A stretch of DNA of 64,000 bases, taken from positions 1 through 64,000 of the forward strand of contig JAHYIV010000013.1 in assembly GCA_019429465.1 (NCBI GenBank), read 5' to 3'. This stretch comes from Desulfoarculaceae bacterium (GTDB lineage: Bacteria > Desulfobacterota > Desulfobulbia > Desulfobulbales > Desulfocapsaceae). Below are positions 36,646-63,333 of this stretch, one piece after another. The notes below the pieces were generated by a model. It searched no databases and was not told the origin of the DNA. It saw only the letters and a list, made by a program, of their open reading frames with translations. Numbering within the stretch: position 1 is the stretch's first letter; every line of letters starts with the position of its first letter. Made by a program: the position numbers and the translations under genes.

Positions 36646-37034
36646 TTTTCCCCCCGAAAGAAAAGTCCCACGACAGTCATGGCCACGATCGCCGCAAAGG
36701 TCACAAGGGTTACCGCGTTGACCAGCCGCTGATCGGCCGGAAACCAGCATGCCTGTTTTGCCGGAAGGGTTCGTGGCAGCCAGGGCAGAGCGGTGAAAAA
36801 AACCGCCAGCAGCACGATCAGGTAAACCAGAGCGCTGGAATAACTTACCATTTCCTGCATCCAGAGCAGGAACCAGGCCGATTTTGACGGGTTGGGAACC
36901 CGGCCTAAATCGGCAGGTGTCTCCAGGGGGGCAGGGATCAGCCAGGCAAGGAGCAGCAGCACCACAACCCCCAGGACAAAAGCCCTGTTGATCAGCCGGA
37001 AAAAGAAGGGGGAACTCTGTACATGGTCATTCAT
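36621..37034 (-). CDS. Cytochrome b C-terminal subunit (subunit IV-like), three membrane helices
   Basis: A 137-residue inner-membrane protein with three hydrophobic helices (about residues 17-35, 68-90 and 103-125). VPNPSKSAWFLLWMQEMVSYSS is the quinone-site loop region of cytochrome b C-terminal domains (PNPAKAPWYFLGLQE type), where the usual PEW motif is replaced. As in the b6f complex, the C-terminal half of cytochrome b is a separate gene. The start codon lies in the ATGA overlap with the b6-like gene. Longer upstream frames at this place are out of frame with both proteins and not real. Confidence 0.85.
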   Translation of the reverse strand: MNDHVQSSPFFFRLINRAFVLGVVVLLLLAWLIPAPLETPADLGRVPNPSKSAWFLLWMQEMVSYSSALVYLIVLLAVFFTALPWLPRTLPAKQACWFPADQRLVNAVTLVTFAAIVAMTVVGLFFRGENWSFVFPF

Positions 37035-37666: not shown

Positions 37667-38055
37667 CCTGCCACCACCCAACGTCCATCTCGCTCTTCCA
37701 CGGTTAATCGCCTCAGGGGCTGTTTTGCCGGTCCCTGCAGAACATTGCCCCGCCGATCGAAACGGCTGCCGTGGCAGGGGCAGACGAGTTCAGAGGAGGT
37801 CACGGCCACGGTGCAGCCCAGATGAGTGCAGGTGAGGTCAAGGGCATGAATCTCTTCTCCCTCGCGGACCAGGGCCACCCTCGCCTGGCGGAAGACCAGG
37901 GCTCCCTCGGCGGGGACCGGTCGGCTCGACACATCAAGCCGCACCTTGCCGGATGGCAGACGGGGCCGGAAAAAGGCGCCGAAAAACCAGATACCGCTCA
38001 AGGCAAGAATCAGGGTTGCGATAAAATTTCGACGCTTTCGGCCAGATTTTTCCAT
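37663..38055 (-). CDS. Rieske iron-sulfur protein
   Basis: A 130-residue protein with the Rieske 2Fe-2S motifs CTHLGC and CPCHGSRFD and an N-terminal twin-arginine signal anchor (KRRNFIATLILALSG), so it is membrane-tethered with its cluster in the periplasm. It accepts electrons from quinol at the cytochrome b site. Its start lies 46 bases inside the decahaem cytochrome gene, and its stop overlaps the cytochrome b start by four bases. Confidence 0.94.
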   Translation of the reverse strand: MEKSGRKRRNFIATLILALSGIWFFGAFFRPRLPSGKVRLDVSSRPVPAEGALVFRQARVALVREGEEIHALDLTCTHLGCTVAVTSSELVCPCHGSRFDRRGNVLQGPAKQPLRRLTVEERDGRWVVAG

Positions 38056-41067: not shown

Positions 41068-41136
41068 GATGAAAAGAACGGCATTTGCATGGAGTTCCGG
41101 CGGCAGAATACGAGGAGAGCCGCCCGGGCAAGACTC

Positions 41137-41178
41137 AAAAAAGGCCGGCAGGTGCCCCGCCAAGGGCGCCTGCCGGCC
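41137..41178 (-). terminator. Strong hairpin with T run between porin and cytochrome genes
   Basis: On the minus strand GGCCGGCAGGCGCCC pairs with GGGGCACCTGCCGGCC and is followed by TTTTTT. It lies 30 bp after the porin stop and 70 bp before the dodecahaem start. It would end part of the transcription inside the operon and so lower cytochrome expression relative to rhodanese and porin. Confidence 0.85.
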
Positions 41179-41207
41179 TGCAACGATTAAGCCTCAATCG
41201 ATGTTTT

Positions 41208-42398
41208 TTAGAAAATTACCTGCAATGACGTGACAAAGGTGGTGAAGTCCTTTGTTTCCACGTTGGTGAAAGTTCCCTCCTTATCGAAGTCAGCCCTTGA
41301 CAACTCCATGGTCAATTTCAGGTTCTGGCCGCGGAAGTAATAGTTGATGCCGCCGCCATACCAGTCGACTTCCTGGTCATAGACGTTGTTCAGCTTGGCA
41401 AACGACCAATTTTCGGAACGGGCGAAAAACTGCAGCGGCAGGCTGGGCAGCATATAGCCTGCCTTGATATACCCGCCGTTCTTCTCTCCGTTGAGGTCAA
41501 TGGTGCCCAGATCAGGACTAGCCGACTGGTACGCGTCGTCGAGGTCATAATCAACGTAGGCACCGGCAAGGGTAAAGGTGCCGACGCCATCAACCGGATA
41601 CTCAAAGAACAGGTCGGCAGTCCATGCCTTATAATCGACCGCGCCGGTCCGGGTCATCACGTTCCGGTAGGCGACGTCATTTTCCATCTGGTAGGCGGCG
41701 CCAATGGTCAGCACCTTTTTTTCTCCCAGATATGTCCCTCTGTAGCCGTGTCCGTTTTCCGGATCCAGCAGACTCACATGGGCACGGGCGCCATAACGAA
41801 AGGCTGAATCCGGAGTCGAATCGGAATCGTTGCGGCCGTTCATCGCATTGATCCGGTACTGGAAGATGTCGTTAAAGAGGTTGCCCCAGAGGGTGACCCC
41901 CTTGTCGCGGGTCCCGTCGCTGACCAGAGGCGCCCGAAGCAGCAGGGAACGGTCGAGGGTCAGCGGCATTTCACAGGCCTCGAGATTCTCACGGGTCATA
42001 CTGTATTTGTACTTGCCGAGCCAGAGGTTAAGTGCGTTGTCATAACGGAATCGCGCGACCGCATCGAGTATCCTGAAATCGTTGTCGCTGCCGTCGGTCA
42101 CGGATAACGGGCCGATATTGATGTCTTCGGTGTACTCGGTCTGAACATAGATGCCGAATTGTTCCCCGTAGCCACCCATCAGAGCCAGACGATTGCGGCG
42201 GAATTTGAACTCATTGGTGCTGTCGTCCCCATTGTCACCCGATCCGGTGTCGCGGCTGACAAACTGGAACTGCCCCTTATAATCAAGCTTGAGTACACCC
42301 TGATCTTCCTCGCCGAATGTCCAGGTTGGCCCGGCAAAGGCCGGAGCAGTCACCAGGAGCATACCTGCGCAGGCAAGCAGTGTCTTATGAATTTTCAC
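41208..42398 (-). CDS. Outer-membrane beta-barrel (porin-like), conduit pore
   Basis: A 396-residue exported barrel. A signal peptide (VKIHKTLLACAGMLLVTAPAFA) is followed by alternating strands typical of porins, such as LKLDYKGQFQFVSRD, FKFRRNRLALMGGYGEQFGIYVQTEYTED, and the closing TTFVTSLQVIF whose C-terminal Phe suits the Bam signal. The phosphate-selective porin (OprO/P-like) fold is the nearest I recognise. The start is the GTG at 42398, seven bases after AAGGAG. It follows the rhodanese gene by 50 bp. In context it is probably the sheath of an electron conduit, like ExtI or MtrB, but its strand number cannot be set without modelling. Confidence 0.83.
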   Translation of the reverse strand: MKIHKTLLACAGMLLVTAPAFAGPTWTFGEEDQGVLKLDYKGQFQFVSRDTGSGDNGDDSTNEFKFRRNRLALMGGYGEQFGIYVQTEYTEDINIGPLSVTDGSDNDFRILDAVARFRYDNALNLWLGKYKYSMTRENLEACEMPLTLDRSLLLRAPLVSDGTRDKGVTLWGNLFNDIFQYRINAMNGRNDSDSTPDSAFRYGARAHVSLLDPENGHGYRGTYLGEKKVLTIGAAYQMENDVAYRNVMTRTGAVDYKAWTADLFFEYPVDGVGTFTLAGAYVDYDLDDAYQSASPDLGTIDLNGEKNGGYIKAGYMLPSLPLQFFARSENWSFAKLNNVYDQEVDWYGGGINYYFRGQNLKLTMELSRADFDKEGTFTNVETKDFTTFVTSLQVIF

Positions 42399-42448
42399 GA
42401 TAGTTCTCCTTTGCAAAATAAATTATTGAGTACGGATTCTTGACGTCA

Positions 42449-43846
42449 TTAACAGCCGCCACCGCTGCCACCCGAGGTGGAGCCAGGCGCGCCGCTGCCG
42501 GCAGGCGGTGTTTCGGCATGGGCCCGGTCCTCGATCTCGATGCTGTTGGCACCTGAGTCACGAGGAGTGAGGGCGTTTTCGAGAATCCTGAACGTCGGTT
42601 TCTCAATCACTTTGGGGAAATTTATATTGTAGTAGATACCGGGGAAGAACGGACCATTGTTAACCAATGTATAACCGTCTCTAGTCAAAACATCGGTTGC
42701 CCACTCGGACAGTTCGGCCGGCAGGGCGTAACTGGCATCGGGAACATAGATCGTCCGGTCCAACTCGTTGGTCAGGCTGCCCCACTGGCTCCAGGAACCG
42801 TCATAGACCATGATGTCCCAATCCAGCGCGGCGTCAATCGGCATAAAAGCATAAGATGCGGCGATGCCGGCTCGGCAATAGATAATAATCGGCTTGGTCC
42901 CATCGATACCCAGAGGTAGGAGAAGGGCCTTGATATCCTCGGCACTCTTCGCGGTCATCACTCCATCAACGGTCTCGTAGAAATTAGCGTGGTTGAGATG
43001 CTGGCCGCCGTTGATGGTGCCCTGGAAGATGACAAAGTCGTTTGTTGATTTTTGTGGTGATAAGCATTTTTCTTTATCGAACTCGGTGTACGGGTATGTC
43101 AGATCATCGTCGCAATAAGCTGACGGTGCAAAAATACCAGTGGTGCCCCCTGCTTTTTCGGTGTTATTGGTCAGGACATTCAGGGGTATTGCCGTCTCAT
43201 CCCGCACGGCGATTATGAGCTCGCTGAGGGCGGCACGGACGCTGGGATTAAACTGGAGATTATTGACGCCGTAGTCAGACGGCGTGATGACAGGTTCTAC
43301 GGTGGTCAGGGCGTAGTCGGCAGCAGTCCATGCCGCAACACCGCCGTCAAGCACCTTCAGCCGCTCTTTCGGGAAACCCCAGTAGCGGAAAGTGAAATAG
43401 GCTCGAGAATCACTCCTGCCGTTTGCAAAGACGACCGTGGTCCTCTCATCTATACCGTGCTGTTGCAACAGGCTGTCCATGGTAGGGCCGTCAAGGACCA
43501 TGCTGGAACTGAGCACCGGGCCATCATAGCGCTCAATGCCGGCAGGGCCCGTCCATTTTTGGGAACCGGGAATGCGACCACCCTTCCCTTCGCCATTGAG
43601 AATGACGATCTTTTCCCAACCCTCGTCATTGTTGACCAGGCCTTGGTCAATCCAGCCTTTCAGGGTGGCCGCATCGATCAGGACACTCTGGGTTTGTCCC
43701 TCAATCGGGGCGCTCTTGGTGGCTTCGGGCTCGCTGTAACTATCGGAGCCGCCGCCGCAACCGGCAACTAGCAATGATGTCGCCATAACGAACACCATCG
43801 GTAGGGTTCCCGCCATGTTCCTCATCCGCAAAAAATATCTGGTCAT
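42449..43846 (-). CDS. Tandem rhodanese-like lipoprotein, first gene of the conduit operon
   Basis: A 465-residue lipoprotein (lipobox VAGC near residue 30) with two rhodanese folds. The second has the active-site loop YCRAGIAASYAF with its Cys, near residue 345. In the first the equivalent loop is FANGRSDSRA and has no Cys, so it is probably structural. The protein ends in a Gly/Ser-rich tail closing in GGSGGGC, whose last residue is Cys before TAA. The ATG at 43846 follows AGGAGAGAAC. A rhodanese-like lipoprotein in front of a barrel and multihaem cytochromes recalls the extH gene of the Geobacter extHIJKL conduit. Its role there is unknown; here it may bind sulfur or a metalloid. Confidence 0.87.
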   Translation of the reverse strand: MTRYFLRMRNMAGTLPMVFVMATSLLVAGCGGGSDSYSEPEATKSAPIEGQTQSVLIDAATLKGWIDQGLVNNDEGWEKIVILNGEGKGGRIPGSQKWTGPAGIERYDGPVLSSSMVLDGPTMDSLLQQHGIDERTTVVFANGRSDSRAYFTFRYWGFPKERLKVLDGGVAAWTAADYALTTVEPVITPSDYGVNNLQFNPSVRAALSELIIAVRDETAIPLNVLTNNTEKAGGTTGIFAPSAYCDDDLTYPYTEFDKEKCLSPQKSTNDFVIFQGTINGGQHLNHANFYETVDGVMTAKSAEDIKALLLPLGIDGTKPIIIYCRAGIAASYAFMPIDAALDWDIMVYDGSWSQWGSLTNELDRTIYVPDASYALPAELSEWATDVLTRDGYTLVNNGPFFPGIYYNINFPKVIEKPTFRILENALTPRDSGANSIEIEDRAHAETPPAGSGAPGSTSGGSGGGC

Positions 43847-44317
43847 GTTCTCTCCTGTAAATTTTGTATAAACATCCGTTTGAATGAGAATGCAATCTCC
43901 GCCTGATTCACTTGAATCCGTAGAGCGCATCACCTTAATCCTTTTTGGATTGATCTTGATTGCTGTTTCCCTGCACAAAGGTTTCCTCATGTTTTTACGC
44001 ACACATTCCCTGGTGCAGGCAAATTCATACAGAAGCCTTCAAGATCTTACGGCATTTACTCTACTATCACCCCCCGTTTCATGTTTTTACTGTTTTTATT
44101 GTCCATCTCAAAACATATTAAAAAAACTGTATTACAAATTGTAAAAGATATGAAGTAAAATTTTTAGTATTTATCAAATTTTTTGTATTTTGGAGTAAAC
44201 CTTGTATATTGTTTCGGAACAGAGATAAAAAAAAACAGATTCTCCCTCTCTTGAGGGATGCGCTAATCGCTTAAAATTACAAATAAAAGATGGAAATTTT
44301 CTGAAAGAGGAAAGCAG
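43847..44317. other. AT-rich intergenic region, no gene
   Basis: A 470-bp stretch of clearly lower GC than its surroundings (from about 44080 to 44310 it is nearly all A and T). It holds the leader and promoter region of the conduit operon on the minus strand. The open frame at 43884-44144 has no ribosome site. It ends at the right copy of the direct repeat. Confidence 0.5.
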
Positions 44318-48980: not shown

Positions 48981-50273
48981 TTACAGTGTCTTACCAAAAC
49001 GGTAGCTGGCCGTCAGCATCCCCCGCAGGTCGTGGTCAAAGTACGGATCGCGGCTGTAGTCGGCGGACAGCTTCAGCTCAAGGGTATCAGCCAGAAACTT
49101 CTTGCCGACCCCCAAGGAGATAAACAGCGAGCTGTCCTCACCGTAGATCGCCTGGTCGTAGCCGACAAAGAGCAGATCGCCGCTGATAAACCCGATCGGG
49201 CAGCCTGCCGGCAGCTGATCCCAGTAGCTGAAGAGACGGAACAGGGTGTAGTCGTTCTGCGCCGTATCGCCGTCCATATAACCGAGCTCGCCGCCGATCC
49301 GGCTGTGTCCCGCTCCGGTCGACCAGGTAGCCTGGGCACCGGAATAGCGGGAGCTGTCGTCAAAAATCTCGTAGTCGTAATGCTTGGCCTTGGCCACCAG
49401 GATCCAGGACTTACCGACCGGCAAGGTCAGGTCGGCGCCGCCGACACGCAGCCTCTCGCCGGTGTCGGCGAGATAGCGGAAGGGGCCGGCACTGTTGATG
49501 CCGGTGCTGAAGTAGTCTTCGTACTGGAATTCCTGAAAATAGGGGCGCAGCGCCACCGGACCAAGGGGCAGGCGCAGCTCGTAGGAGTGTTCGCCCCAGC
49601 CCTCGCTCTCCAGGTTGTACGAGGAGAGGCCGTAGAGGCTGACGTCGTAGGGCAGGTAGGCCGACAGGTCGATGCCGGTCATCTCGCCGGCGTTGTCGCT
49701 GTCATTGCGGATCTTCTTGTAGGAGAGACCGAGATCATACCAGGAAGCCAGGTGAGAGGCCAGACGGCCGCCGTAGATGCTGTCGCCGCTGCTGCCGCTC
49801 TCGCTGTTGAGCGCCACCGGCTGCCCGGCGTAGAGTGAGCCGGAAAAGTAGCGCCCCAGGTCGGAGCTGAACCGCACCCCGTCGACGGCATCATTGGCCA
49901 CCCCCTCGAACACCTGCTGCCGGCCGAGCCGGGCGTTGAAGCGGGCCTCCTTACGGCTGTATTCAAGGTATCCGTAGAGCAGCTCGCCCTCCGTGTCGTC
50001 GCTGTAATAGTCGTTATTGGCCAGATCAGCGCGTCCCCAGCCGTACATGTGGAAGGCCAGGCCCGGCTCGCCTGGCGAGTCGATGTCAAGTCGCAGGTAC
50101 TCGTACAAGGGCATCACCGCCGCATCCTTCTCTGTGGCGGTGCTCCGCTCGAAGGCCCGGAGGATGGTGTCGGACTTGAAATTGATCTCCGCGGCAGAAA
50201 CAGAAAGAGGCATACAGAGTATCCCCATTATTGCCAACCAGAAAAAACGCCCCGACCATTCAGTCATTATCAT
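48981..50273 (-). CDS. Outer-membrane beta-barrel of the second conduit
   Basis: A 430-residue exported barrel with signal peptide (FFWLAIMGILCMPLSVSAA) and many strand pairs rich in aromatic and acidic residues, for example RADLANNDYYSDDTEGELLYGYLEYSR and SYELRLPLGPVALRPYFQEF. It ends LTASYRFGKTL, without a terminal Phe but with a Phe three residues from the end of the strand. No haem site. As the first gene of a three-gene unit with cytochromes it is probably the pore sheath, a role akin to MtrB or OmbB. I do not recognise a closer family. Two start codons six bases apart (50273, 50267) are both possible. Confidence 0.83.
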   Translation of the reverse strand: MIMTEWSGRFFWLAIMGILCMPLSVSAAEINFKSDTILRAFERSTATEKDAAVMPLYEYLRLDIDSPGEPGLAFHMYGWGRADLANNDYYSDDTEGELLYGYLEYSRKEARFNARLGRQQVFEGVANDAVDGVRFSSDLGRYFSGSLYAGQPVALNSESGSSGDSIYGGRLASHLASWYDLGLSYKKIRNDSDNAGEMTGIDLSAYLPYDVSLYGLSSYNLESEGWGEHSYELRLPLGPVALRPYFQEFQYEDYFSTGINSAGPFRYLADTGERLRVGGADLTLPVGKSWILVAKAKHYDYEIFDDSSRYSGAQATWSTGAGHSRIGGELGYMDGDTAQNDYTLFRLFSYWDQLPAGCPIGFISGDLLFVGYDQAIYGEDSSLFISLGVGKKFLADTLELKLSADYSRDPYFDHDLRGMLTASYRFGKTL

Positions 50274-51016: not shown

Positions 51017-53254
51017 TTAATTGGAAATATCAAAAGCTCTATCAGCACCATGGCAGACAGCGCATGCATTTTCGTTTTGTTCCATGTGCTCAACAGCAGC
51101 CCCACCATCATGACAACCGATACACGGTGTTAGGGACATTCCGGTCGTCTGGTACGAGGTGTTGCCCGAATCATGGCAAGTCTCGCAACGGAGGACATTC
51201 TGCGGATAGGTTATTTCCGACCAATTGTAGCCAAGGAGATCGCCAGATACGGAGGCATCGTGTATCGCATGCACCCGGTTAGCGATCGGATCAGCGTGGT
51301 TACCGGATTTATCATGGCAGGCAATACAACCGTCAGTTCCGAAGTAACTGCGGTGATACGTGCTGGTCCAGTCAGCCAGATTATGACAACTGATACAACC
51401 ATCGCCGGCAACCTTCAACTCTTCCGTGGCCGTCCCGACCTGGAAGGTTGTAATTGCCCAACCGTCTATTTTATAGTTACGTTTGCCGACGAGCCTACTA
51501 TCAGGATGACCAATGGCAGCCATTACCATGTAAGTGCCTGGCTCAAGGTCCTTGGGAATCGGCAGCAGTTGATACTTGAATCCTTCGGCATCGGTTTTGA
51601 CCTGAGCATCGGTATTCACAATGTCATCAGCAGTTCCAGGAAGCCTGTCTGTCCCCCAAAGAGTGCTTAACATGCTGTGACTCTGGGTTGGCAGCTTTGC
51701 TGGATCTGTTTTGAGCGCTTCTATAAAGGCAGGATCCGTGGTTGAATTGGTAGTTAAGACCGGTACCGCCTTGGCACGCGGTCCATAGACGTACAGATTG
51801 GCATCAGTGAAAGATACACCTTGAATATCGGTGTAGTTACCGGTTGCACCTGTAACGGTAACCTTAACCAGGGGCGCTTCACCAGCTTCATAGACACCAT
51901 CACCATTGGCGTCGGCGCTCATGGTAATGGTAGAGGTGTACACCGGTACGTTGGATACAAGCGGAGCGTTTTTAAGCGTCGTCACCGCATGGGCATTGGT
52001 GACACTCTGGCCGACGCCTTTTCCAGTAGCGGGATGACAAAATTTACAACCGGTGTTATTGGCCTGCGCGCCACCACTATGGGTGGGGGCGGCTCCAGTG
52101 AACGTGGTGTCAATATGACAGGTCACGCAGACCTCGGCGGTGGGGTTGTTCTTCCAGTTGTCGATTTTATCACCGGTACCCAAATCGTTACCACTGGCGG
52201 TGTGGCAGACCACACAGTCATTGATAACTTGCGGGTAGGTGACAGCGCCATAGCCTTTACCGCCGATCCTGTTGTTATCCCAATCTCCCATATCAATGGC
52301 GGCATGGATTTTGTGAATCAAATTGGGCAGGAATGCCATTCTTGTATCGGCGCTCCTACCAGACAGTGGCGAATGGCACACGACGCAGGACATGTCGAAA
52401 TAGCTACTGGCGTGCGCGGCCTTATCCATCTGCTCGCTGTGACAGCTTTGACAGGCTTCAAGGGTGGTGTACTGGTTTTGCTTGTCGATCGGTGTCGCTA
52501 CCGCGTCAAGTGCAGGCGCTGCCGCAATGTCAAAAGTAGTGGCATCACCATTAGTATCTAACGGCAATGGAGCGGCAGCGTTATTGGAGATCCTGATAAA
52601 TACCCGTTTTGCATTAGCATCGGCGTACTCATTGTTATTTGCCCTTGTGGCCGATTTAGTACCAAAGGCTACCGGCGCGGTGTAGACGTAGTCGCCAGTC
52701 GCTGCGTTAGTAGTATCAAGAGTGCCCGTGCCCGTTTCGTACATCCAGTTCTCAAAATAATCGCTGCCATAGGTTTTGGTAGCGCCAGCAGCACCATCCA
52801 GATCAACCGTCACAGTGCCAGCTTTGATCAAGTCGGCGATAACAACGCGTAGATTTTGTACTGCAAGAGTCGTGTAAGGTTCGCCAGCAGCATCTTTAAC
52901 GTTGAACGTGACAACCGGAAAACCACCGACATTTGAAACTTCGGTGATGGCCGCGGCCAGATTTTGCCGTTTGACCTGCAGCGTGCCATCGGATTTGTAC
53001 ATGTGTGATGCGCTACGAATGCCGAGGGCACCATCGACACCATCTTTACCATCGACACCATCTTTACCATCGACACCATCGATACCATCGACACCATCTT
53101 TACCATCGACACCAGCGATACCATCTTTACCATCGACACCAGCGATACCATTTTTCCCGTCGTCGCCGGAACAGCCCGTCATAGCCAGGGTGGCACTGAG
53201 CAGCCCTACCAACAACAGAGATTTTAGCCCAAAGGGCCTTATTCCACTTTCCAT
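51017..53254 (-). CDS. OmcA/MtrC-family decahaem surface cytochrome with collagen-like stalk
   Basis: A 745-residue lipoprotein (lipobox MTGC at about residue 28) with ten CxxCH sites in two sets of five, the layout of the MtrC/OmcA family: CQSCH, CVVCH, CVVCH, CVTCH and CKFCH in the first set, and CISCH, CIACH, CETCH, CIGCH and CAVCH in the second. Between them is a beta-rich domain (about 440-590), and another precedes the first set (about 85-265). Immediately after the lipid site there are about fifteen Gly-X-Y triplets (GKDGIAGVDGKDGVDG type), a collagen-like run. The ATG follows AAGGAG seven bases before. This surface protein would hand electrons to extracellular acceptors or partner cells. 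A stalk of this kind is not part of the standard family. Confidence 0.93.
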   Translation of the reverse strand: MESGIRPFGLKSLLLVGLLSATLAMTGCSGDDGKNGIAGVDGKDGIAGVDGKDGVDGIDGVDGKDGVDGKDGVDGALGIRSASHMYKSDGTLQVKRQNLAAAITEVSNVGGFPVVTFNVKDAAGEPYTTLAVQNLRVVIADLIKAGTVTVDLDGAAGATKTYGSDYFENWMYETGTGTLDTTNAATGDYVYTAPVAFGTKSATRANNNEYADANAKRVFIRISNNAAAPLPLDTNGDATTFDIAAAPALDAVATPIDKQNQYTTLEACQSCHSEQMDKAAHASSYFDMSCVVCHSPLSGRSADTRMAFLPNLIHKIHAAIDMGDWDNNRIGGKGYGAVTYPQVINDCVVCHTASGNDLGTGDKIDNWKNNPTAEVCVTCHIDTTFTGAAPTHSGGAQANNTGCKFCHPATGKGVGQSVTNAHAVTTLKNAPLVSNVPVYTSTITMSADANGDGVYEAGEAPLVKVTVTGATGNYTDIQGVSFTDANLYVYGPRAKAVPVLTTNSTTDPAFIEALKTDPAKLPTQSHSMLSTLWGTDRLPGTADDIVNTDAQVKTDAEGFKYQLLPIPKDLEPGTYMVMAAIGHPDSRLVGKRNYKIDGWAITTFQVGTATEELKVAGDGCISCHNLADWTSTYHRSYFGTDGCIACHDKSGNHADPIANRVHAIHDASVSGDLLGYNWSEITYPQNVLRCETCHDSGNTSYQTTGMSLTPCIGCHDGGAAVEHMEQNENACAVCHGADRAFDISN

Positions 53255-53883
53255 TCTTTGCTCCTTAATAAAGTGAGGGAATTTCTTTATTCACAAGAAA
53301 GGCGCCCCCCTATTAGCGTTCCCTTCCCTGCAGACATCTTGCAGCCTTACGATACATCTTGGAACAAAGAAATTTGACACCAAGCAATGCAAGCTTGCTG
53401 TCAATAAGGAATGCAAACTGGATTAAACAGAACCTGACTCAAGCCGACACTGCCCCTGAATCAATGGATTATCGCTGTATCAGATCTACTTTTGTTGCGA
53501 GTGCAACACTGTAACCGGGGGTCTCTCTCTTCGCCGTATATCCATGCAATGTTTATTTTTTATACATGGATACTTTTAACTCATTATGAACCTAATTTTT
53601 TCACATGTCAAATAAATAAACTCATTTATTGCGCAGCTGACTTTTTTTAAAGGACCCTCTACAAGTTCCTTCATTTTCAGCAAATTCAAATTGACAAATC
53701 AAGGGAGGTCTTGTTAAAAAGATGTGGGGATATGGGGAATATCCTGCAGTTTCAGCCGGGATTTCTGTCCGCCGAATCCACATCCAGCGTCCTTCCTCCA
53801 TCAAAAAAAGTGAAGTTCCCGTTTAATTGACGGGTGCTGTTTTTTTTGATGCAGAACAAGGCAATTTTCTTTACAGTGCCGTC
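53255..53883. other. Divergent intergenic region between decahaem cytochrome and type II secretion operon
   Basis: A 630-bp AT-rich region that must hold both promoters. The only structure I see is a small inverted repeat, GTATATCCATG ... CATGGATAC, at about 53535-53573. No small gene with a good ribosome site was found. Confidence 0.4.
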
Positions 53884-54894
53884 ATGATAGCCATGGTCGA
53901 ACACAAGAGATATATTTACTGGCAGCAACGCCTCAGAGAACAAGGGCCCCAGATCCTGATCCCTCTCATCTCCCTGGTGCTGATCCTGTTGACTGCCCAG
54001 GGCTCGGCCCGCTTAAGCTGGCGGCTTTTTGACCTCGTCCGCCCGAGCCAGCAGGGAGCAGTCTCCACCACCGCCGCCGGGCCTGTTGACAGCGGCGGGA
54101 TCGCTCGTCCGGAGAGGACCTCGCCGGCCCAGGAGCTGACAAAGCTGCATCTCTTCGGCCAGGCCGGCGGTATGACCGTCGCCACCCTGCCCAATGCCCG
54201 CGATCTGCCGCGGACGACCCTCCGGCTGGCCCTCATCGGCGTCATCTTCAGCTCCAATCAGGAGAAAGCGGTGGCCATTATCCAGGAAAAGGAATCAACA
54301 AAAGAGGCCGCCATCTACGGAGTGGGCGACCAGCTGCCCGGAAGCTCCGTGCTCCGTGAGATCCTTACCGACCGGGTCATCCTGCTGCGGGCAGGGAACC
54401 ACGAGATCCTGCTTCTTGAGGATCTGTCGTCCACTGCCGCCCCCGGCATGGCAAAAAAAACCACGCCGACGGTCGATAGAGCCGCCAGGAGAGCGGAGAC
54501 ACGACCTCGACCGCCAAGCCAGCCGCGCGAAGACGATGGCGACGCAGGAAACGGCGGGAATGGTACCAGTGCCAGCCTGAATATCAATCGTGAGGACCTC
54601 AATGAGCGCATAGCCGATCTCCAGGCCCTGGCCAGCGAGATCAGCGCCGAGGTCTATCAGGTGGAGGGTGCCCAGCAGGGCTATCGGCTCCAGGCCGGCA
54701 GCGGCAGCGAGCTCCTGGGCCAGCTGGGCCTGAGGAGCGGCGATGTCCTGACCGAGGTCAACGGCATGCCCCTCAGCAGTGCCGGCGATGCCATGCAGGC
54801 CTACACCAAAGCCAAGAATGAAGAAATGATCCAGATCCAGTTTATCAGGGACGGTAAACCGCAAACCGTGGAATATTTCATCGGCCAGCCCTGA
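53884..54894 (+). CDS. gspC: Type II secretion inner-membrane protein GspC
   Basis: Links the inner-membrane platform of type II secretion to the secretin. The 336-residue protein has a short cytoplasmic N-terminus, one membrane helix (ILIPLISLVLILLTAQGS), an HR domain (about 90-185, with TTLRLALIGVIFSS and AIYGVGDQLPG), a charged linker and a C-terminal PDZ domain (SELLGQLGLRSGDVLTEVNGMPLS). The start is not sharp: ATG at 53884 or 53893 fits best, since upstream codons in the frame look non-coding and no good ribosome site is seen. Confidence 0.88.
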   Translation: MIAMVEHKRYIYWQQRLREQGPQILIPLISLVLILLTAQGSARLSWRLFDLVRPSQQGAVSTTAAGPVDSGGIARPERTSPAQELTKLHLFGQAGGMTVATLPNARDLPRTTLRLALIGVIFSSNQEKAVAIIQEKESTKEAAIYGVGDQLPGSSVLREILTDRVILLRAGNHEILLLEDLSSTAAPGMAKKTTPTVDRAARRAETRPRPPSQPREDDGDAGNGGNGTSASLNINREDLNERIADLQALASEISAEVYQVEGAQQGYRLQAGSGSELLGQLGLRSGDVLTEVNGMPLSSAGDAMQAYTKAKNEEMIQIQFIRDGKPQTVEYFIGQP

Positions 54895-55019
54895 GCCGTT
54901 GTCGAAGGTCGAAAGACAATTATTTCCATGGTGAATAGTTCCAAAAATGCAACAATTATTACTTAACACCTACTCAGTTGACCGATCCGCTAACGATCAT
55001 CACCCCTATCCCGTGAGTC

Positions 55020-56954
55020 ATGTATAGTATGTTCATCATCAAACGATTCGCCCTTCTCTGCCTCGTGACTGTCTTGTTACTGCCATCCTCCGCCTGTGCC
55101 GAGGAGCAGATTGCCTTCAATTTCAACAATGCCGATATCCGGACGGTGATCAAGAGCGTGGCCCACATCACCGGCAGGAATTTTGTCATTGACCCGGCGG
55201 TGAAGGGAGAGGTCACCATTATCAGTTCGGAGACCATGTCAGCGGAGGAACTCTACGCCATCTTTCTTTCCGTCCTCCAGGTCCATGGCTATACCGCTAT
55301 CGAGTCCGGCAATATCATCAAGGTCATCCCTGTGGTCAAGGCCAAGCAGGAGACCGATGCGACCGCTATGTCGAGGCGGGGGTCATCGCCCAGCGATCAA
55401 ACCATTACCAGAATTTACAAGTTACGCTATATAGGAGTGCAAGAGTTAATTTCCGTCCTGAAGCCTCTGGTAGCAAACACCGCCTACCTCGGGTTCCATC
55501 TGGAGAGTAATACGCTGATCATGGTGGATCGAGCGGCCAATATTGAACGGCAGGTCAAAATCATCGAAAGCATTGATCATGATACCACAGGCAAATCCGA
55601 GATTATTACCCTGCAATATGCCTCGGCCACAGACCTGGTCGCGGTGATTGCCTCGCTGGAGAATAAGGCAAACAAAAGAGCTGGCGATCATCTGCAGATG
55701 GCTGCCGATGCCCGGACCAACAGCATCCTGCTGAGTGGCGATCCCCACTATATACTCAGGGTAAAGGCCCAGATAGCGCACCTTGACACACCCGTCATCA
55801 GCGAAGGCAGCACCCAGGTTGTCTTTCTCCGTAATGCCAAGGCCATAGACCTGGTACCCATCTTAACCGGCACGGTGAAGGCAGAAACTCCTGCCGGACA
55901 AGCAGCTCCCCCTCCCGCCAAGCAGGAAGCTATCATTGTCCTTGCCGATGAGGCCAGCAATGCCTTGATCATTACCGCCCCGCCGGCCCAGATGAAATCG
56001 ATACAGTCGGTGGTTCGACAACTTGACATTCGCCGGGCCCAGTTGATGATCGAGGCCATTATCGCCGAGGTCTCCGTTGACAATGCCGAGGAATTCGGCA
56101 TCCAGTGGCGTTCAGGCAGCGATGTCGGCGCCGGCAACAACGCGGTTCTTGGCGGCACCAATTTTAACGCCACAGGCTCCGGGATCAATGCCATCTCCGT
56201 TAACCCCGAGGCATTGATTCACGCCGAGGGCTTGAGTCTTGGTTTCTTCAGCGGTACCTCGCATATCCTCGGCCAGGAGATCATCAACCTCAGCTCCCTG
56301 ATCCGTGCCCTGTCGTATACCGGGAACACCAACATCCTTTCGACCCCGAGTCTGATGACCATGGACAATGTGGAAGCGGAGATCGTCGTCGGCCAGAACG
56401 TTCCCTTCCCCACCGGCAGCTATACCTCTACCGGCAGCACGACCTCCACGGTCAACCCCTTCACCACCTACGAGCGCCACGATGTCGGCATCAAGCTCAA
56501 GGTCAAGCCGCAGATTACCGAAGGCGACACCATCCGTCTTGATATCACCCAGGAGGTGTCCAGCGTTGTCCCTGCCTCATTTGGCCAGGCCGCCGGCCCG
56601 ACCACCAATACCCGGACCATCACCACCTCCGTGCTGGTCGATGACGGCAAGCTCCTGGTACTCGGCGGTCTGATCAGCAATGATGTGCGCGAAGAAGAAC
56701 ATTCCGTCCCCATTCTCGGCCGCATCCCCCTTCTCGGCGCCCTCTTCCGCTACAACAGCGTCAACCATGACAAACGCAACCTCATGGTTTTTCTCCGGCC
56801 GGTTATTATCCGCGAAGCCGCCAGCAGTTCCAGGATCACCTTTGACAAGTACGATTACATGCGTGATCTCCAGCAGCGACATGGAGAGCAGCAAAGCTTC
56901 CTGCTGCCGAAAGATGAGGCCCCGCTCCTGCCGGTGGCCGGCCAGGGTGATTAA
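55020..56954 (+). CDS. gspD: Type II secretion secretin GspD
   Basis: Outer-membrane secretin ring. The 644-residue product has a signal peptide (cleavage near SACA), the N0 domain ([37 protein letters not shown]), N1-N3 repeats ([46 protein letters not shown]), and the secretin core with [38 protein letters not shown] and [15 protein letters not shown]. Two ATGs nine bases apart are both possible starts. It is 125 bp after gspC. Confidence 0.96.
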
Positions 56955-56955
56955 G

Positions 56956-58470
56956 ATGCCCGAGTCCGCAATCATTATCGAACGGCTTCTCCCCTTTTCC
57001 TTTGCCAAGCGGCACGGGGTCCTGGTTGATCATCGTGGCGGCAACAGCATGGCCCAGGTCTCCTGCCGTTCCGGTTTCACGCCCCTGGTCCTGGCCGAGC
57101 TGCGCCGCTTTCTGGGGCAGCCTTTTGAGCTGGTGCCGGTGGAAGATGACCAGTTTGACCTGCTGCTGCATACCATCTATGAAGGTGGCGTCGAGGACAT
57201 GGAGCTCAACGGCGGGCTTGAAGATGAGCTGGAAGAAGAGCTTGACCTCAACAGCATCGCCCGGCAGCTGGCCGAGCCGGAAGATCTGCTGGAAAGCCAG
57301 GATGACGCGCCGATCATTCGCCTGATCAACGGCCTGCTCACCGAGGCCATCAAGGAAAATGCCTCCGATATCCACATTGAGCCCTTTGAAAAAAGACTGC
57401 GGGTGAGATTCAGGACCGACGGCATGCTGCGTGACCGACTGCAGCCGCCCCGTGAGCTGGCGCAACTCATTACCTCCCGGATCAAGATCATGGCCAAGCT
57501 TGATATTGCCGAGAAAAGACTGCCCCAGGACGGACGCATCTCCCTGCGTGTCGCCGGCCGGCCGGTGGATGTACGGGTCTCCATTATGCCCTGCGGGGCC
57601 GGGGAGCGGGTTGTGCTCCGCCTGCTCAACAAACAGTCCGGGCGCCTCGATCTCAAACAACTGGGCATGGCGCCCGCCGATCTGACCCTGATGGACAATC
57701 TCATTCACCGTCCCCATGGCATTATCCTGGTCACGGGCCCCACCGGTTCAGGGAAGACGACCACCCTCTATGCCGCCTTAACCCGCCTGAACCAGAGCGA
57801 CCGCAACATCATGACGGTGGAAGATCCCATTGAATATTATCTTGACGGCATCGGCCAGACCCAGATCAATCCCAAGGTGGGTATGACCTTTGCCAAGGGT
57901 CTGCGCGCCATCCTGCGCCAGGATCCGGATGTGGTGATGGTGGGTGAGATCCGCGACCTGGAAACCGCCGAAATCGCCGTCCAGGCCAGCCTCACCGGTC
58001 ATCTCGTTCTTTCGACCCTGCACACCAATACGGCAGTGGGGGCGGTGACCCGCCTGCGTGACATGGGCATTGAGCCCTTTCTGCTCTCCTCGACCGTGAT
58101 CGGGGTTGTGTCCCAGCGCCTGGTACGCATGCTCTGCCCCCATTGTAAATCCTCACACCCGGCCACCCCTTCCGAGTGCGAGGAATTGGGTCTGTCGGCT
58201 GCCGCCCCTCCCCAACTCTTCTCCGCCAACGGTTGTGAGAAATGTAACTCTCTGGGCTACCATGGCCGGAGCAGTATCTACGAAATGCTGGAGATTTCAG
58301 ATGCCCTGCAGACCATGATCCACGACTGTGCCTCCGAGCAAGAGCTGGAGGCCCAGGCCCGCCTGCATACCGCCAGTATTCGTCAGGATGGACTGCGACG
58401 CATTCTCGCCGGCGACACCACCATCGAAGAGGTGCTCCGGGTCACCAACAGAGATCTGGAGGTGGTGTGA
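56956..58470 (+). CDS. gspE: Type II secretion ATPase GspE
   Basis: Cytoplasmic hexameric ATPase that drives pseudopilus assembly. The 504-residue protein has an N-terminal domain, [18 protein letters not shown], the arginine finger region [11 protein letters not shown], Walker [11 protein letters not shown], the Asp-box [13 protein letters not shown], the Walker [17 protein letters not shown], a His-box [14 protein letters not shown], and the zinc motif CPHC...CEKC. I start it at the ATG at 56956, just after the gspD stop; a much longer in-frame extension at 56680 would lie within gspD. Confidence 0.97.
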
Positions 58471-58473
58471 TCG

Positions 58474-59688
58474 ATGGCCGCGTTTAACTATAGCGCCCTC
58501 AACCGGCAAGGCAGTCTCCTGCATGGTGTGATCGAGGGTGATTCCCCCCGCCATGTCAGACAACTGCTCCGTCACAAGGAGCTGATCCCGGTCACCATTG
58601 AAGAGATAAAACGACGCGCTTCCGCAGGCAAATTCCAGATGCATCGGCGGCGCAAGATCAGTGCCTCCGAGCTGGCACTGATCACCAGACAACTCGCCAC
58701 CCTGATCCGCTCAGGCACGGTGCTGGAAGAATCCCTCAAGGCCGTGGCCGAGCAAAGCGAGCAGGACCGGATCAAATCCGTTCTCCTCGCCGTTCGGGCC
58801 AAGGTGGTCGAGGGGCATTCACTGGCCGTTGCCCTGGCGCAATTCCCGGCCATTTTCCAGGAACTTTATCGGGCCACGGTGGCGGCCGGCGAGAAGACCG
58901 GCTATCTTGATCTTGTTCTCGAACGGCTGGCAGACTATACGGAGTTCAGCCAGCAGTTACGCCAGAAGATGATCCTGGCCCTCCTCTATCCGGTTTTGCT
59001 CACCGGGGTCGCCTTTGCCGTCGTCACCGCCATGATGATCTATGTGGTACCGCAGGTCGTCAAGGTCTTTGAGAATATGGGGCAGGAGCTGCCCCTGCTG
59101 ACCCGGGCGCTGATCACGGCCAGCAGCCTGTTGAAGGCCTACGGGCTCCTTCTTTTTATCACCGTGATTGTGCTGATCATCCTCTTTCGCCTCGTCCTCC
59201 GCCGCGAAGGGGTGCGCTGCCGTTTTCATCATCTGCTGCTGCGGGTACCCTTGCTGGCCAAGGGAATCAAGACCTTGAATGCCGCCCGTTTTGCGCGTAC
59301 CTTCAGTATCTTGACGGCCAGCGGTATTTCGGTCCTCGAAGGGCTGCAGATATCCTCCCAGGTTCTCAGCAACCTGGCCATCCGTCAGGCCGCGACCACA
59401 GCGGCCAGCAGGGTCCGTGAGGGGGCAAGCCTGAACAGGAGCCTGGCTCAATGCGGGTTTTTCCCCCCCATCACCATTCACATGATCGCCAGCGGCGAGG
59501 CCAGCTCCAAGCTCGATGAGATGCTGGGGCGGGCCGCCGACATCCACGAACGCGAAGTCGAGACCATGCTGACCGCCACTCTCAGCATCTTTGAACCCTT
59601 ACTGATCCTGGTGATGGGGGGCGTGGTCCTCTTAATCGTCCTCGCCATCCTGATGCCCATCTTTGAGCTGAACCAACTCGTGCATTAA
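58474..59688 (+). CDS. gspF: Type II secretion inner-membrane platform protein GspF
   Basis: Polytopic platform protein. The 404-residue product has the standard two GspF domains, LITRQLATLIRSGTVLEESLKAVAEQ and the later AARFARTFSILTASGISVLEGLQISSQ, and three membrane helices (about 170-195, 220-240 and 370-395). GEASSKLDEMLGRAADIHE near the end is a family hallmark. It begins three bases after gspE. Confidence 0.96.
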   Translation: MAAFNYSALNRQGSLLHGVIEGDSPRHVRQLLRHKELIPVTIEEIKRRASAGKFQMHRRRKISASELALITRQLATLIRSGTVLEESLKAVAEQSEQDRIKSVLLAVRAKVVEGHSLAVALAQFPAIFQELYRATVAAGEKTGYLDLVLERLADYTEFSQQLRQKMILALLYPVLLTGVAFAVVTAMMIYVVPQVVKVFENMGQELPLLTRALITASSLLKAYGLLLFITVIVLIILFRLVLRREGVRCRFHHLLLRVPLLAKGIKTLNAARFARTFSILTASGISVLEGLQISSQVLSNLAIRQAATTAASRVREGASLNRSLAQCGFFPPITIHMIASGEASSKLDEMLGRAADIHEREVETMLTATLSIFEPLLILVMGGVVLLIVLAILMPIFELNQLVH

Positions 59689-60059
59689 TGCCATCTCTCC
59701 GGTCAAAAAAGGGCTTTACCCTGCTGGAAATCCTGGTTGCCCTGGCGGTTCTCAGTATTGCTCTCATGGCGGCCTTGAAAAGCAGCGGCGTGGCAATACA
59801 GAACACCTCGGCCCTCAAGGAGCGTACCCTGGCCCATTGGGTGATGCTCAATCGGGTCGCCGAGCTGGAACTTGACAGACGCTGGATCTCGCTTGGCACC
59901 ACGAGAGGCAAGACCTTGATGGCCGGACAGACCTGGTATTGGGTCATTTCCACCGAGAAAACTCCTGATCCGGATATTCGCATGGCCGAGGTGAGCGTCG
60001 GCCTCGGAGAGAAAGATAACGCTCTGGTATCTATGGTAGCCTTCCTTGATCGTCCGTAA
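59688..60059 (+). CDS. gspI: Type II secretion minor pseudopilin GspI
   Basis: A 123-residue pseudopilin with the prepilin peptidase site KKG-FTLLEILVALAVLS and the short C-terminal domain of GspI (ALKERTLAHWVMLNRVAELEL, then a DIRMAEVSVG strand). It forms the pseudopilus tip with GspJ and GspK. It starts at the stop codon of gspF. The usual gspG and gspH do not precede it. Confidence 0.9.
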   Translation: MPSLRSKKGFTLLEILVALAVLSIALMAALKSSGVAIQNTSALKERTLAHWVMLNRVAELELDRRWISLGTTRGKTLMAGQTWYWVISTEKTPDPDIRMAEVSVGLGEKDNALVSMVAFLDRP

Positions 60060-60678
60060 ACCCATTACCGACACAGGCTTTACCCTGCTTGAGATCCTGG
60101 TCGCCATGGCTATATTCGCGGTCATTTCGGTCATGACCTTTCACGGACTGCAGGCCATCCTCAAAACCCGTGAAGACATGGATCTTGAGGGCGATCGTCT
60201 GGCCTCCCTGCAGCGGGTCATGATCATGATGAGCAGGGATTTTGAGCAGATTGTCGCCCGCCGTATTCGTGATGAATATGGCGGGCAGCAGCCGGCCCTG
60301 CTCTGCCAGGCCCTGGCAGAAAAAACGGTGGAATTCAGTCGAGGCGGCTGGCGCAATCCGGCAACGCTGGCCCGCAGCAGCATTCAGCGGGTCTCCTACC
60401 GCTTTATCGACCGCAGCATCGTCAGAGAGAGCTGGCCTGTGCTCGACCGTGCCGTGGCCACCAAGCCGCTCAGCCAGACGGTTTTAACCGGAGTCGATGA
60501 TTTCAGGCTTCGTTTCCTCGACCGCGACGAAGAATGGCAGACCAGCTGGCCGCCGGAAGCAAGGGAAGCCAGCAATGACCAGCGCATGCTTCCCCAGGCC
60601 ATTGAGGTGACCCTTGATCTTGAAGATTGGGGAACTATTCACCGGCTTTTTCTGCTGGCCTGGGAGGGTGGTGAATAA
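60046..60678 (+). CDS. gspJ: Type II secretion minor pseudopilin GspJ
   Basis: A 210-residue pseudopilin with the cleavage site DTG-FTLLEILVAMAIFA, then VMTFHGLQAIL and MMSRDFEQIVARRIRDEYG, typical of GspJ. No ATG lies near; a TTG at 60046, inside the end of gspI, gives MIVRKPITDTG and is the likely start. It ends TAATG, overlapping gspK by one base. Confidence 0.88.
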   Translation: MIVRKPITDTGFTLLEILVAMAIFAVISVMTFHGLQAILKTREDMDLEGDRLASLQRVMIMMSRDFEQIVARRIRDEYGGQQPALLCQALAEKTVEFSRGGWRNPATLARSSIQRVSYRFIDRSIVRESWPVLDRAVATKPLSQTVLTGVDDFRLRFLDRDEEWQTSWPPEAREASNDQRMLPQAIEVTLDLEDWGTIHRLFLLAWEGGE

Positions 60679-61637
60679 TGACCAGTCGGCGCCTCCTTTG
60701 CTTGCGGACCCTGGTCCCGGCGAGGCAGTGGAACCAGGAGGGAGCCGCCCTCCTCTCCGTGCTCCTGATATCCGCTTTGATAACTATCATGGCCGTGGCC
60801 ATGATCAGCCGCCAGCAGATTGATATCAGGCGTACGGCGAATGTCATCGAGGCGGAACAGGCCTATTTTCTGGCCAGGGGCGGGGAAAGCTGGGCCAGGT
60901 ACCTGTTGATCAGAGACACCAAAAAGGGGACCATCGATCACCTGGGAGAAGACTGGGCTCGAGGACTGCCCCCGGTTCCGGTAGCAGGTGGCATGGTGTC
61001 GGGAATGATCTTTGACCTGCAGGCACGTTTTAATGTGAACAACCTGCTGGCAGCTGACAGCAACCTGCGGGAAGACAGCCGTCGCCAGTTTGCAAGATTG
61101 CTGAGTTTCTGTCACCTTGAGCCTCAACTCCTGGAGGCGGTGGTTGACTGGATTGATGATGACGTCGATAACGGCTGGTTCGAGGACATGGCCTATAGCA
61201 GTTATGATCCTCCCTACCGCACCGCCAATCAGCCGCTGATAAGCCCAAGCGAGCTCCTCCAGGTGCAGGGTATGAGCGGTGCCGGTTTCCAGTGCCTGGC
61301 CCCTTTGCTCTCGGCCCTGCCGGCTGGAACACGGACGAATATCAATACCGCACCCGCCGGTATTATTGCCTCTCTGGCCGATGACATCTCCCTGGAACAG
61401 GCGGAAGAAGTGATTGCACGGAGACCGATTAAGGGGTATGCAAGGCTTGCCGACTTTTTGGCTGAGCCGGAGTTTATCGACAGTGGGCTGTCAGAGAACA
61501 GCTTATCGCTGGGCAGTGATTTTTTTCTGGTGCAGAGTAAGGCCTCCATGGGCCGGGGCAAAAACACGCTGTTCAGCCTTCTTCAACGCCATGGTTATGG
61601 CGTAAAGGTATTGCAGAGAACAATGGGAACCTATTGA
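60678..61637 (+). CDS. gspK: Type II secretion minor pseudopilin GspK
   Basis: A 319-residue large tip pseudopilin. The hydrophobic segment GAALLSVLLISALITIMAVAM starts after EQG- or EG- like sites, followed by the large alpha-helical domain with FDLQARFNVNNLL, LEAVVDWIDDDVDNGWFEDMAY, TNINTAPAGIIASLADDIS and RRPIKGYARLADFL. It overlaps gspJ by one base. The N-terminal 20 residues before the segment are unusually long and Arg-rich. Confidence 0.92.
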   Translation: MTSRRLLCLRTLVPARQWNQEGAALLSVLLISALITIMAVAMISRQQIDIRRTANVIEAEQAYFLARGGESWARYLLIRDTKKGTIDHLGEDWARGLPPVPVAGGMVSGMIFDLQARFNVNNLLAADSNLREDSRRQFARLLSFCHLEPQLLEAVVDWIDDDVDNGWFEDMAYSSYDPPYRTANQPLISPSELLQVQGMSGAGFQCLAPLLSALPAGTRTNINTAPAGIIASLADDISLEQAEEVIARRPIKGYARLADFLAEPEFIDSGLSENSLSLGSDFFLVQSKASMGRGKNTLFSLLQRHGYGVKVLQRTMGTY

Positions 61638-61639
61638 TA

Positions 61640-62836
61640 ATGAAAGATATAATCATCAGATTCGGTGCCGAAAATCTAGAGGACGTCAGCTGGATGAGGA
61701 CGGATGATGCCTCCTCCCTGCAAAGCGGCTCACTGGCCGAGGCCGCCGCGGACTGCCAGGAGGCACGGGTCATTGTGCTCGTGCCGGCGGCCGATGTTCT
61801 GCTGATCAGGGCCATGATTCCCGGCCGGAATCGAAAAAGGAGTATCCAGGCGGCCCCTTTCGTTCTGGAGGAACACCTGGCCGATAATATTGAAAAATTT
61901 CATTTTTCCTGTGGCCCCCGCAATCCCGACGGCAGCATGGATGTCGCCGTCGTTAACAAAAAGTGCATGGTCCAGTGGCTCTCTCTGTTACACAATGTTG
62001 GCCTGGAAGTTGACGCCCTGATCCCTGAAACCCTGGCTGTGCCCTATGAAGAGGAGGGTCTGACGATCCTGATCGATCATGATCAGGCCCTGATCCGTAC
62101 CGGACTAAGAGCCGGTTTTGCCGTCGATGTCCACAATCTGCAGGCCGCCCTGCAGGCCCATCTGGCGTCTCTTGCCGATGCTTCCATTGGCCGGATCCGC
62201 CTCTTTCAGGAGGAGGATATCGATCTCAATCTCGAGCTGGCAGTGCCTGTCTCGCCAGCCGTCAAGACAACAGCCATGGCCGCTTTTGGTCAGGGATTTG
62301 ACAGGAAGATCGCCCTTGACCTCCTCCAGGGAGAATACAGCCGGAAGACCGATTGGCAGCAGGTCATGGAGCACTGGAGGATCCCCTTTGTCCTGGCCCT
62401 GGTCTTCATTACGGTCAAAGTCGTTTTATTTGGTGTCGATTTCATCTATTATCAACAGCAAAGCCAATCCCTGCAGAAACGCATTGAAAGCGTGTATCTC
62501 TCCGCTTTTCCAGAGACCAGAAAGCTGGTGAATCCCCGGGCCCAGATGGAACAACAGCTGTCCCTGCTCACTGACGGCCAAGGGGTTCAGTCCGGTTTCC
62601 TCGAATCATTGGCCCGAGTCGGCCCGGCCTTACAACAGACAGAAGGCTACGCCCTGCAGCGTCTCAGTTACCGGGATAATGACCTGGAGCTGGAGTTGAC
62701 CTTGGCCGGCCTGGATGCCGCCAGGGAATTAAAGGATCGTCTGCTGGCCAATACCGATTTAAGCGTCGAGATTCGCACCAGTCCGGCCGACGATAATCGG
62801 GTTTCAGCGCGCCTGCAAGTCAAGGAGAAAAGATAA
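61640..62836 (+). CDS. gspL: Type II secretion platform protein GspL
   Basis: A 398-residue bitopic inner-membrane protein that ties GspE to the platform. It has an actin-like cytoplasmic domain (LVPAADVLLIRAMIPGRNRKRSIQAAPFVLEEHLADNIEKFHF), one membrane helix near residue 250 (IPFVLALVFITVKVVLFGVDF), and a periplasmic domain (LESLARVGPALQQTEGYALQRLSY). The ATG at 61640 is preferred over a TTG at 61634. Confidence 0.9.
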   Translation: MKDIIIRFGAENLEDVSWMRTDDASSLQSGSLAEAAADCQEARVIVLVPAADVLLIRAMIPGRNRKRSIQAAPFVLEEHLADNIEKFHFSCGPRNPDGSMDVAVVNKKCMVQWLSLLHNVGLEVDALIPETLAVPYEEEGLTILIDHDQALIRTGLRAGFAVDVHNLQAALQAHLASLADASIGRIRLFQEEDIDLNLELAVPVSPAVKTTAMAAFGQGFDRKIALDLLQGEYSRKTDWQQVMEHWRIPFVLALVFITVKVVLFGVDFIYYQQQSQSLQKRIESVYLSAFPETRKLVNPRAQMEQQLSLLTDGQGVQSGFLESLARVGPALQQTEGYALQRLSYRDNDLELELTLAGLDAARELKDRLLANTDLSVEIRTSPADDNRVSARLQVKEKR

Positions 62837-63333
62837 TGACCAGCTTTTTGAACACCCTAAGCCGCCGGGAAAGATTAATGGTGATGGCGGCCGGGGGGCT
62901 GCTCCTGCTGCTGGTCAGCTATTTTGCCATCATTTCGCCCCTTACTAAAAAGTTACATTTCCACCAGGAACGGATCCCGGCCCAGCAGGAGTTGTTAACC
63001 TGGATGGAGCAATCAGCTCAGCAGGTGAAAAAGAGCCGCGGCCTGGTGCGGAATACGACAAGGTACAGCGGCAGTGAATCCGCCTCTTCTTATATCAAGA
63101 CCACGGCCAAGGCGCGAGGCCTTGGCGACGGTATCAAGGAGGTGGAATCCACCGGCCAGGGCATCAAGGTCTTGATCGAAGGAGTCATCTTTGATAGTAT
63201 CATCTCCTGGCTTGACCTGCTCCAACAGAGCTATGGCCTGGCGGTCGTAGATATCTCCATCAGCAGGGCGAAAGATCCCGGGACTGTTAACGTCCAGGTT
63301 CTTTTCAGGGAGGGCGGCCATGATGAATCGTAA
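62836..63333 (+). CDS. gspM: Type II secretion platform protein GspM
   Basis: A 165-residue protein with one N-terminal membrane helix (LMVMAAGGLLLLLVSYFAIISPL) after LSRRERL, and a periplasmic ferredoxin-like domain with FDSIISWLDLLQQSYGLAVVDISISRA. It pairs with GspL. It starts at the gspL stop and overlaps gspN by 14 bases. Confidence 0.9.
   Translation: MTSFLNTLSRRERLMVMAAGGLLLLLVSYFAIISPLTKKLHFHQERIPAQQELLTWMEQSAQQVKKSRGLVRNTTRYSGSESASSYIKTTAKARGLGDGIKEVESTGQGIKVLIEGVIFDSIISWLDLLQQSYGLAVVDISISRAKDPGTVNVQVLFREGGHDES

Follow-up and report, generated by a model that had tools for sequence, protein, structure and literature searches.

A long Gly-X-Y array behind the lipobox of an OmcA/MtrC-type decahaem cytochrome and its probable growth from a short conserved stub

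The window analysed here, a stretch of 64,000 nucleotides from contig JAHYIV010000013.1 of a Desulfoarculaceae bacterium, encodes on its minus strand an OmcA/MtrC-type decahaem lipoprotein in which a long Gly-X-Y array directly follows the lipid anchor. On one side of this gene lie those for a likely outer-membrane beta-barrel and for two further haem lipoproteins, and on the other side a divergent type II secretion operon (Table 1).

Table 1. Features of the cytochrome locus, with positions in the window
Feature	Positions	Strand	Basis
OmcA/MtrC-type decahaem lipoprotein, 745 aa, 10 CXXCH	51017..53254	-	Translation
Lipoprotein signal peptide, residues 1-27, ending LAMTG	53174..53254	-	Sequence; helix 11-23 in AlphaFold2 model
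Putative lipidated Cys28, from lipobox MTGC	53171..53173	-	Sequence; invariant in 23-sequence alignment
Gly-X-Y tether, 17 triplets, residues 30-80	53015..53167	-	Sequence; Pfam Collagen match, residues 27-78
Conserved stub GDDGKN, codons GGC GAC GAC GGG AAA AAT	53150..53167	-	Codons unlike those of the array; relatives' consensus
Expanded part, 14 triplets, each beginning GGT	53024..53149	-	Codon counts; Tandem Repeats Finder
Beta domain I, residues 100-243	52526..52957	-	AlphaFold2 model
Haem domain II, residues 265-422, five CXXCH	51989..52462	-	PF22113 match; AlphaFold2 model
Beta domain III, residues 439-606	51437..51940	-	AlphaFold2 model
Haem domain IV, residues 617-734, five CXXCH	51053..51406	-	Translation; AlphaFold2 model
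Likely outer-membrane beta-barrel of a conduit, 430 aa, with signal peptide	48981..50273	-	Sequence
Pentahaem lipoprotein, 160 aa	48469..48951	-	Sequence; conserved neighbour
Multihaem (CXXCH) lipoprotein, 620 aa	46610..48472	-	Sequence; conserved neighbour
Divergent type II secretion operon: gspC, D, E, F and pseudopilin/K/L/M-like genes	53827..63333	+	Profile matches; ORFs

The translated N-terminus of the cytochrome runs ...LAMTGC-S and then GDDGKNGIAGVDGKDGIAGVDGKDGVDGIDGVDGKDGVDGKDGVDGALGIR. Behind it, the ten CXXCH motifs form two pentahaem domains that alternate with beta domains, ordered I to IV according to an AlphaFold2 model (23 homologues as input; mean pLDDT 65.5, pTM 0.52). The match to PF22113, which covers domains II and IV of MtrC and MtrF, reaches 101.3 bits against a gathering score of 30. 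The family model for OmcA/MtrC decahaem cytochromes, TIGR03507, gives 184.5 bits (E 3.3e-54) and thus stays below its curated cut-off of 209.3, for which reason we call the protein OmcA/MtrC-type and do not formally place it in that model. In a Foldseek search, the best solved structures for the model were MtrC (E 1.4e-21), followed by OmcA and UndA. The overall TM-scores are low (0.35-0.42), as expected for a haem-free model of modest quality; against 9eov, an MtrC fragment of two domains (I-II), the TM-score is 0.74 when normalised by the length of that fragment. Judged by sequence and predicted fold, the protein behind the tether is a recognisable four-domain OmcA/MtrC-type cytochrome.

The likely barrel matches no family in NCBIfam or Pfam. 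Its neighbourhood with the cytochrome is conserved at four homologous loci (L046, L048, L049 and L107), and the set of barrel, pentahaem and multihaem neighbours recurs beside the cytochrome at L046, L049/L104, L048 and L107. This set is likely to be a porin-cytochrome conduit. In Shewanella the genes of MtrC and MtrF cluster with those of MtrA and MtrB and not with such a set. The adjoining secretion genes are well recognised by profiles (TIGR02517 GspD 546.8 bits, TIGR02533 GspE 694.2 bits), with the GspC_delta match at 126.1 bits lying under its cut-off of 150, and they adjoin the cytochrome in the window as well as at L046 and L049/L104. MtrC and OmcA of Shewanella are exported by type II secretion (PMC1974784). 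In view of this precedent and of the adjacent genes, we infer that the window cytochrome is likely exported to the cell surface by the neighbouring type II system. The search of Rfam gave no riboswitch upstream of the cytochrome gene. At three loci (L046:11358-13514, L049:11384-13585 and L048:4671-6905) a protein of about 720-745 amino acids, which by eye has an SGNH-like N-terminal and a TPR-like C-terminal part, is encoded between cytochrome and barrel; it is missing in the window.

The distribution of these genes was followed in 97 genomes of relatives, 16 of them from the same genus, with a close homologue defined by an E-value of at most 1e-20. Close homologues of the cytochrome are absent from the other genomes of the same family and occur in only three genomes of the same order; one more distant member of the cytochrome family is found elsewhere in the same taxonomic family (G057). 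The likely barrel follows the same pattern. For GspD, the best matches come from other families of the order (49-55% identity), compared to an identity of about 36% within its own genus. HtpG, which the same contig encodes, by contrast shares 85-93% identity with same-genus genomes, so that the contig does not look mis-binned. From the patchy homologues and the identities of GspD set against those of HtpG, the unit of secretion, cytochrome and conduit genes looks acquired by the lineage of the window. This suggests joint horizontal transfer of the segment 46610-63333, from the type II operon to the barrel, pentahaem and multihaem genes, with loss in the other lineages as a possible alternative. 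The three functions would then be packaged together in an apparently transferable unit.

The array consists of 17 uninterrupted triplets, counting a last G-I-R, which begin two residues past the lipobox cysteine. GVD and GKD dominate, and proline is absent from all 17 triplets. Pfam Collagen (PF01391) matches residues 27-78 with 34.9 bits, above its gathering score of 27.2. Tandem Repeats Finder reports periods of 18 and 27 at 53029-53162 with 82-91% matching, in agreement with the earlier note, which had described the DNA as a near-perfect tandem repeat. DNA pattern searches of the draft genome (2,842,290 bases) found this array as the sole run of at least eight consecutive Gly-X-Y triplets. 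For TGY followed by four triplets there were eight matches, of which that in the cytochrome gene alone combines a lipobox cysteine with a long open frame. As a genome-wide control on lipoproteins, likewise a DNA pattern search, the combination of a lipobox cysteine with at least four triplets in the C-x-G register returned the cytochrome as its single instance. This uniqueness confirms the Gly-X-Y observation as far from chance. The earlier note had placed the collagen-like triplets at 53029-53160, which proves to be the core of the array, and had set them directly after the lipobox; indeed, they lie in the exported part, right behind the cysteine predicted to be lipidated. An artefact of sequencing or assembly is unlikely, as similar arrays are present in unrelated genomes, but the exact number of units is uncertain because the assembly is a draft and the array, at about 150 nt, is near the length of a short read. 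Candidate genes in other frames (52902-53276 on the plus strand and 52828-53151 on the minus strand) are no more than shadow frames of the repeat and were dismissed.

A shorter form of the same element is found across the family. The earlier note held that standard MtrC lacks such a stalk, yet stubs of 4-5 triplets are carried by the sequences of solved MtrC structures, namely those of S. oneidensis (7o7g, N-terminus LTGCGGSDGNNGNDGSDGGEP) and S. baltica (6r2q, LTGCGGSDGNDGNPGEPGGEP), and also by MtrF (3pmq, ACGGSDGDDGSPGEPGKPP). We surveyed relatives from the same order, the same phylum and further classes together with named records, 67 of which have a recognisable lipobox; these were taken as best matches to the family model and hence do not sample the family at random, and a single genus is the source of many five-triplet copies. 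The homologue comparison that the earlier note had called for bears out the repeat: in 52 of the 67 relatives, or in 38 of 52 once near-duplicates are removed, the cysteine is directly followed by four or more triplets. The length of this element varies between lineages from 0 to 39 triplets (median 6), the longest being L030. The consensus start is C-[S/E/G]-G-[D/S]-D-G, while the favoured triplet differs between lineages: GVD and GKD in the window, GVD in L047, GAD in L011, GAT in L030 and L054, GTN in L050, and GPA in others. A single-sequence search with the window cytochrome returned no close relatives among genome or viral contigs, an alignment-based query gave seven named homologous loci, and the plasmids searched yielded none.

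With shorter tethers throughout the family, the window tether is to be seen as an enlarged ordinary part and no new kind of stalk; going by these sequences, it is conserved in kind and exaggerated in length. MtrC and MtrF of Shewanella share with the window protein the architecture of a ten-haem, four-domain lipoprotein with Gly-X-Y triplets two residues past the lipidated cysteine, and differ in having 4-5 triplets instead of 17. The homologue of Desulfuromonas sp. BM509 (L047) likewise has 17 triplets (11 of them GVD) and belongs to the same clade of bodies, but in contrast to the window protein it has a CXXCH immediately behind its tether. Such a motif directly behind the tether is found in many relatives (L002, L003, L006, L007, L047), about 29 residues past the lipid cysteine where the tether is short. 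The window cytochrome is devoid of it; at its C-terminus, however, it bears an additional CAVCHGADRAFD that is similar to this motif, as though a haem had been shifted from one end of the protein to the other.

A maximum-likelihood tree of the protein bodies (54 rows, tether left out) indicates how often long tethers arose. Tethers of at least 13 triplets require at least seven changes on this tree, and the nearest relatives of their bearers mostly have 5-9 triplets. Long tethers thus emerged on at least seven separate occasions, in most cases next to relatives with short ones. The window protein (17 triplets) falls in a group of five with L002 (7), L003 (6), L046 (6) and L047 (17), its close relatives otherwise carrying 6-8 triplets. 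Since L047 is separated from it by relatives with 6-7 triplets, the two were counted as separate expansions. The codons tell the same story. In triplets 3-16 all 14 glycines are encoded by GGT, whereas elsewhere in the gene 26 of 61 glycines use this codon; if each glycine is treated as independent, our own arithmetic puts the chance of an unbroken run of 14 GGT at about 7 in a million. Valine in the array is always GTC (6/6) and lysine always AAA (5/5). The first two triplets lack this uniformity and look like an ancestral stub. From the uniform codons we conclude that tandem duplication in frame, probably recent, gave rise to the array behind an old CSGDDGKN stub. In pairs of relatives with bodies more than 90% identical, tether lengths are equal, and short, in 17 of 17 cases, which argues that the stub itself is constrained.

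We consider it probable, though well short of certain, that the array is a slippage-expanded, single-chain flexible leash on a surface-anchored cytochrome that is probably exported by type II secretion. An old C-x-G-(D/S)-D-G stub would have been lengthened in frame by duplication of 9- and 18-bp units. The cytochrome would be made as a lipoprotein, probably pass through the neighbouring secretion system and then be anchored to the outer face of the outer membrane. There, the Gly/Asp-rich chain would serve as a hydrated single strand that retains the cytochrome at the cell surface and lets its haem body clear the lipopolysaccharide, so as to reach both the electron-supplying outer-membrane conduit and acceptors outside. 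Fully extended, 51 residues reach about 15 nm and five triplets about 5 nm. A role in retention is in line with work on Shewanella, where MtrAB and a soluble MtrC that lacks the lipid site form a complex that cannot be told from its native counterpart, and where the anchor was proposed solely to confine MtrC to the surface, with no structural role assigned (PMC8415449). Two points speak against a leash: flexibility alone does not require glycine at strictly every third residue, and the short tethers of close relatives are invariant in length (the 17 pairs above).

The rigid trimeric rod put forward in the earlier note, in which a triple helix of three chains would keep the haem domains off the membrane and render the cytochrome trimeric, appears improbable. 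The perfect Gly-X-Y phase through 17 triplets and the match to PF01391 are what it would predict, and proline-poor collagen-like proteins are known in Burkholderia (PMC4565658). The array resembles Scl, BclA, Lcl and Bucl in that it varies in length and is dominated by one or two triplet types. The well-studied bacterial collagens, however, contain 20-40% proline, the most stable Burkholderia proteins have predicted values of 35-38 C, and short collagen-like regions may form no triple helix at all (PMC4565658), whereas the window array has no proline and falls short of the predicted stability that proline or favourable charge pairs would give such a helix, and Asp, unfavourable there, occupies most of its Y positions. 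Its mean per-triplet estimate of 27.7 C, of which only the ranking is meaningful, is the fifth lowest among 36 tethers of at least six triplets. The host-guest stability values behind this estimate are reportedly those of Persikov and colleagues. The usual stubs of the family (4-8 triplets) would be too short for a stable triple helix. Behind the window tether, a simple pattern search found no heptad segment and the monomer model no extra domain that could trimerise the protein. A possible coiled-coil, heptad-like segment does follow the tether in L024 (L024:1435-3744), and also in L046 and L017, so that some relatives could oligomerise. In a narrower version, to which we give slightly less credence still, only the long-tether members including the window protein would form triple helices, as trimeric cytochromes on stalks of about 15 nm, and their short-tether relatives would be monomeric. 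To our knowledge, no trimeric collagen-stalk surface architecture is known for any electron-transfer protein. Residues 25-96, tether included, have a pLDDT under 50 in the AlphaFold2 model, which does not tell leash and triple helix apart, since the single-chain prediction of a collagen strand gives the same. The missing proline, the low stability ranking, the absence of a heptad and the normal assembly of soluble MtrC together favour a single-chain leash over a triple helix.

Alternatively, the stub might matter while the extra triplets are slippage products tolerated in a disordered region with no functional gain. At least seven independent expansions with differing favoured triplets, the uniform codons of a recent duplication and close relatives at 6-8 triplets are all compatible with such neutral growth. 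Frame and Gly-X-Y phase are nonetheless perfect up to the 39 triplets of L030, which are mostly GAT, although duplication of a 9-nt unit preserves both by itself; on balance we regard neutral growth as unlikely. That the C-x-G-(D/S)-D-G start is read as a signal by the lipoprotein sorting or type II machinery and merely extended by the array is an idea we hold to be very unlikely. The first glycines stand in fixed register to the cysteine, positions +4/+5 are acidic in most relatives, G30, G33, G36 and G39 are invariant in 23 aligned sequences (partly selected for having a tether), and type II secretion genes adjoin the cytochrome; against this, no further lipoprotein in the genome shows the element in the C-x-G register and some relatives are entirely without it. 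Hardly credible, finally, is a putative Asp-rich arm that binds metals or minerals. Of about 384 Y positions across the family, 119 hold Asp, more than any other residue, and for the extracellular cytochrome PgcA of Geobacter sulfurreducens, which likewise has low-complexity tandem repeats beside its haems, the repeat regions were proposed to bind iron oxides (PMC5732950). Many relatives, however, have neutral Ala, Pro or Thr triplets instead. PgcA itself differs in that its PTX repeats lie between three haem motifs and in not being OmcA/MtrC-type.

The register-fixed Gly-X-Y start is a neglected part of a much-studied family, being present in most of the OmcA/MtrC-type cytochromes examined, MtrC included. 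In the literature searched, no description of a collagen-like element on MtrC or on decaheme, multiheme or c-type cytochromes was found, and the family-wide start and its repeated lengthening, unmentioned there, are of interest to specialists. If the reach of a surface cytochrome depends on the length of its tether, that length would be a simple parameter by which evolution or engineering could tune electron transfer to minerals and electrodes.

Several further elements were noted in the window. Close to the cytochrome cluster, the minus strand carries an almost entire ext operon, known for selenite/tellurite reduction (34961-44002), with profile matches to ExtH, ExtI, ExtM, ExtN/O, ExtP, ExtQ and ExtS. 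These matches are shared with the ext selenite-tellurite operon and Ext conduits of Geobacter, whereas the barrel, pentahaem and 620-aa set beside the cytochrome matches no NCBIfam Ext model. A selenocysteine tRNA gene lies at 8715-8808 (minus strand), and the genome may encode selenoproteins. A 54-bp repeat on the plus strand (33370-33489; 2.2 copies, 96% match), which encodes SATLSPSLERAALGRPCP twice, sits inside a radical-SAM/methyltransferase-like ORF of 1110 amino acids (30916-34248) and may be an inserted repeat element.
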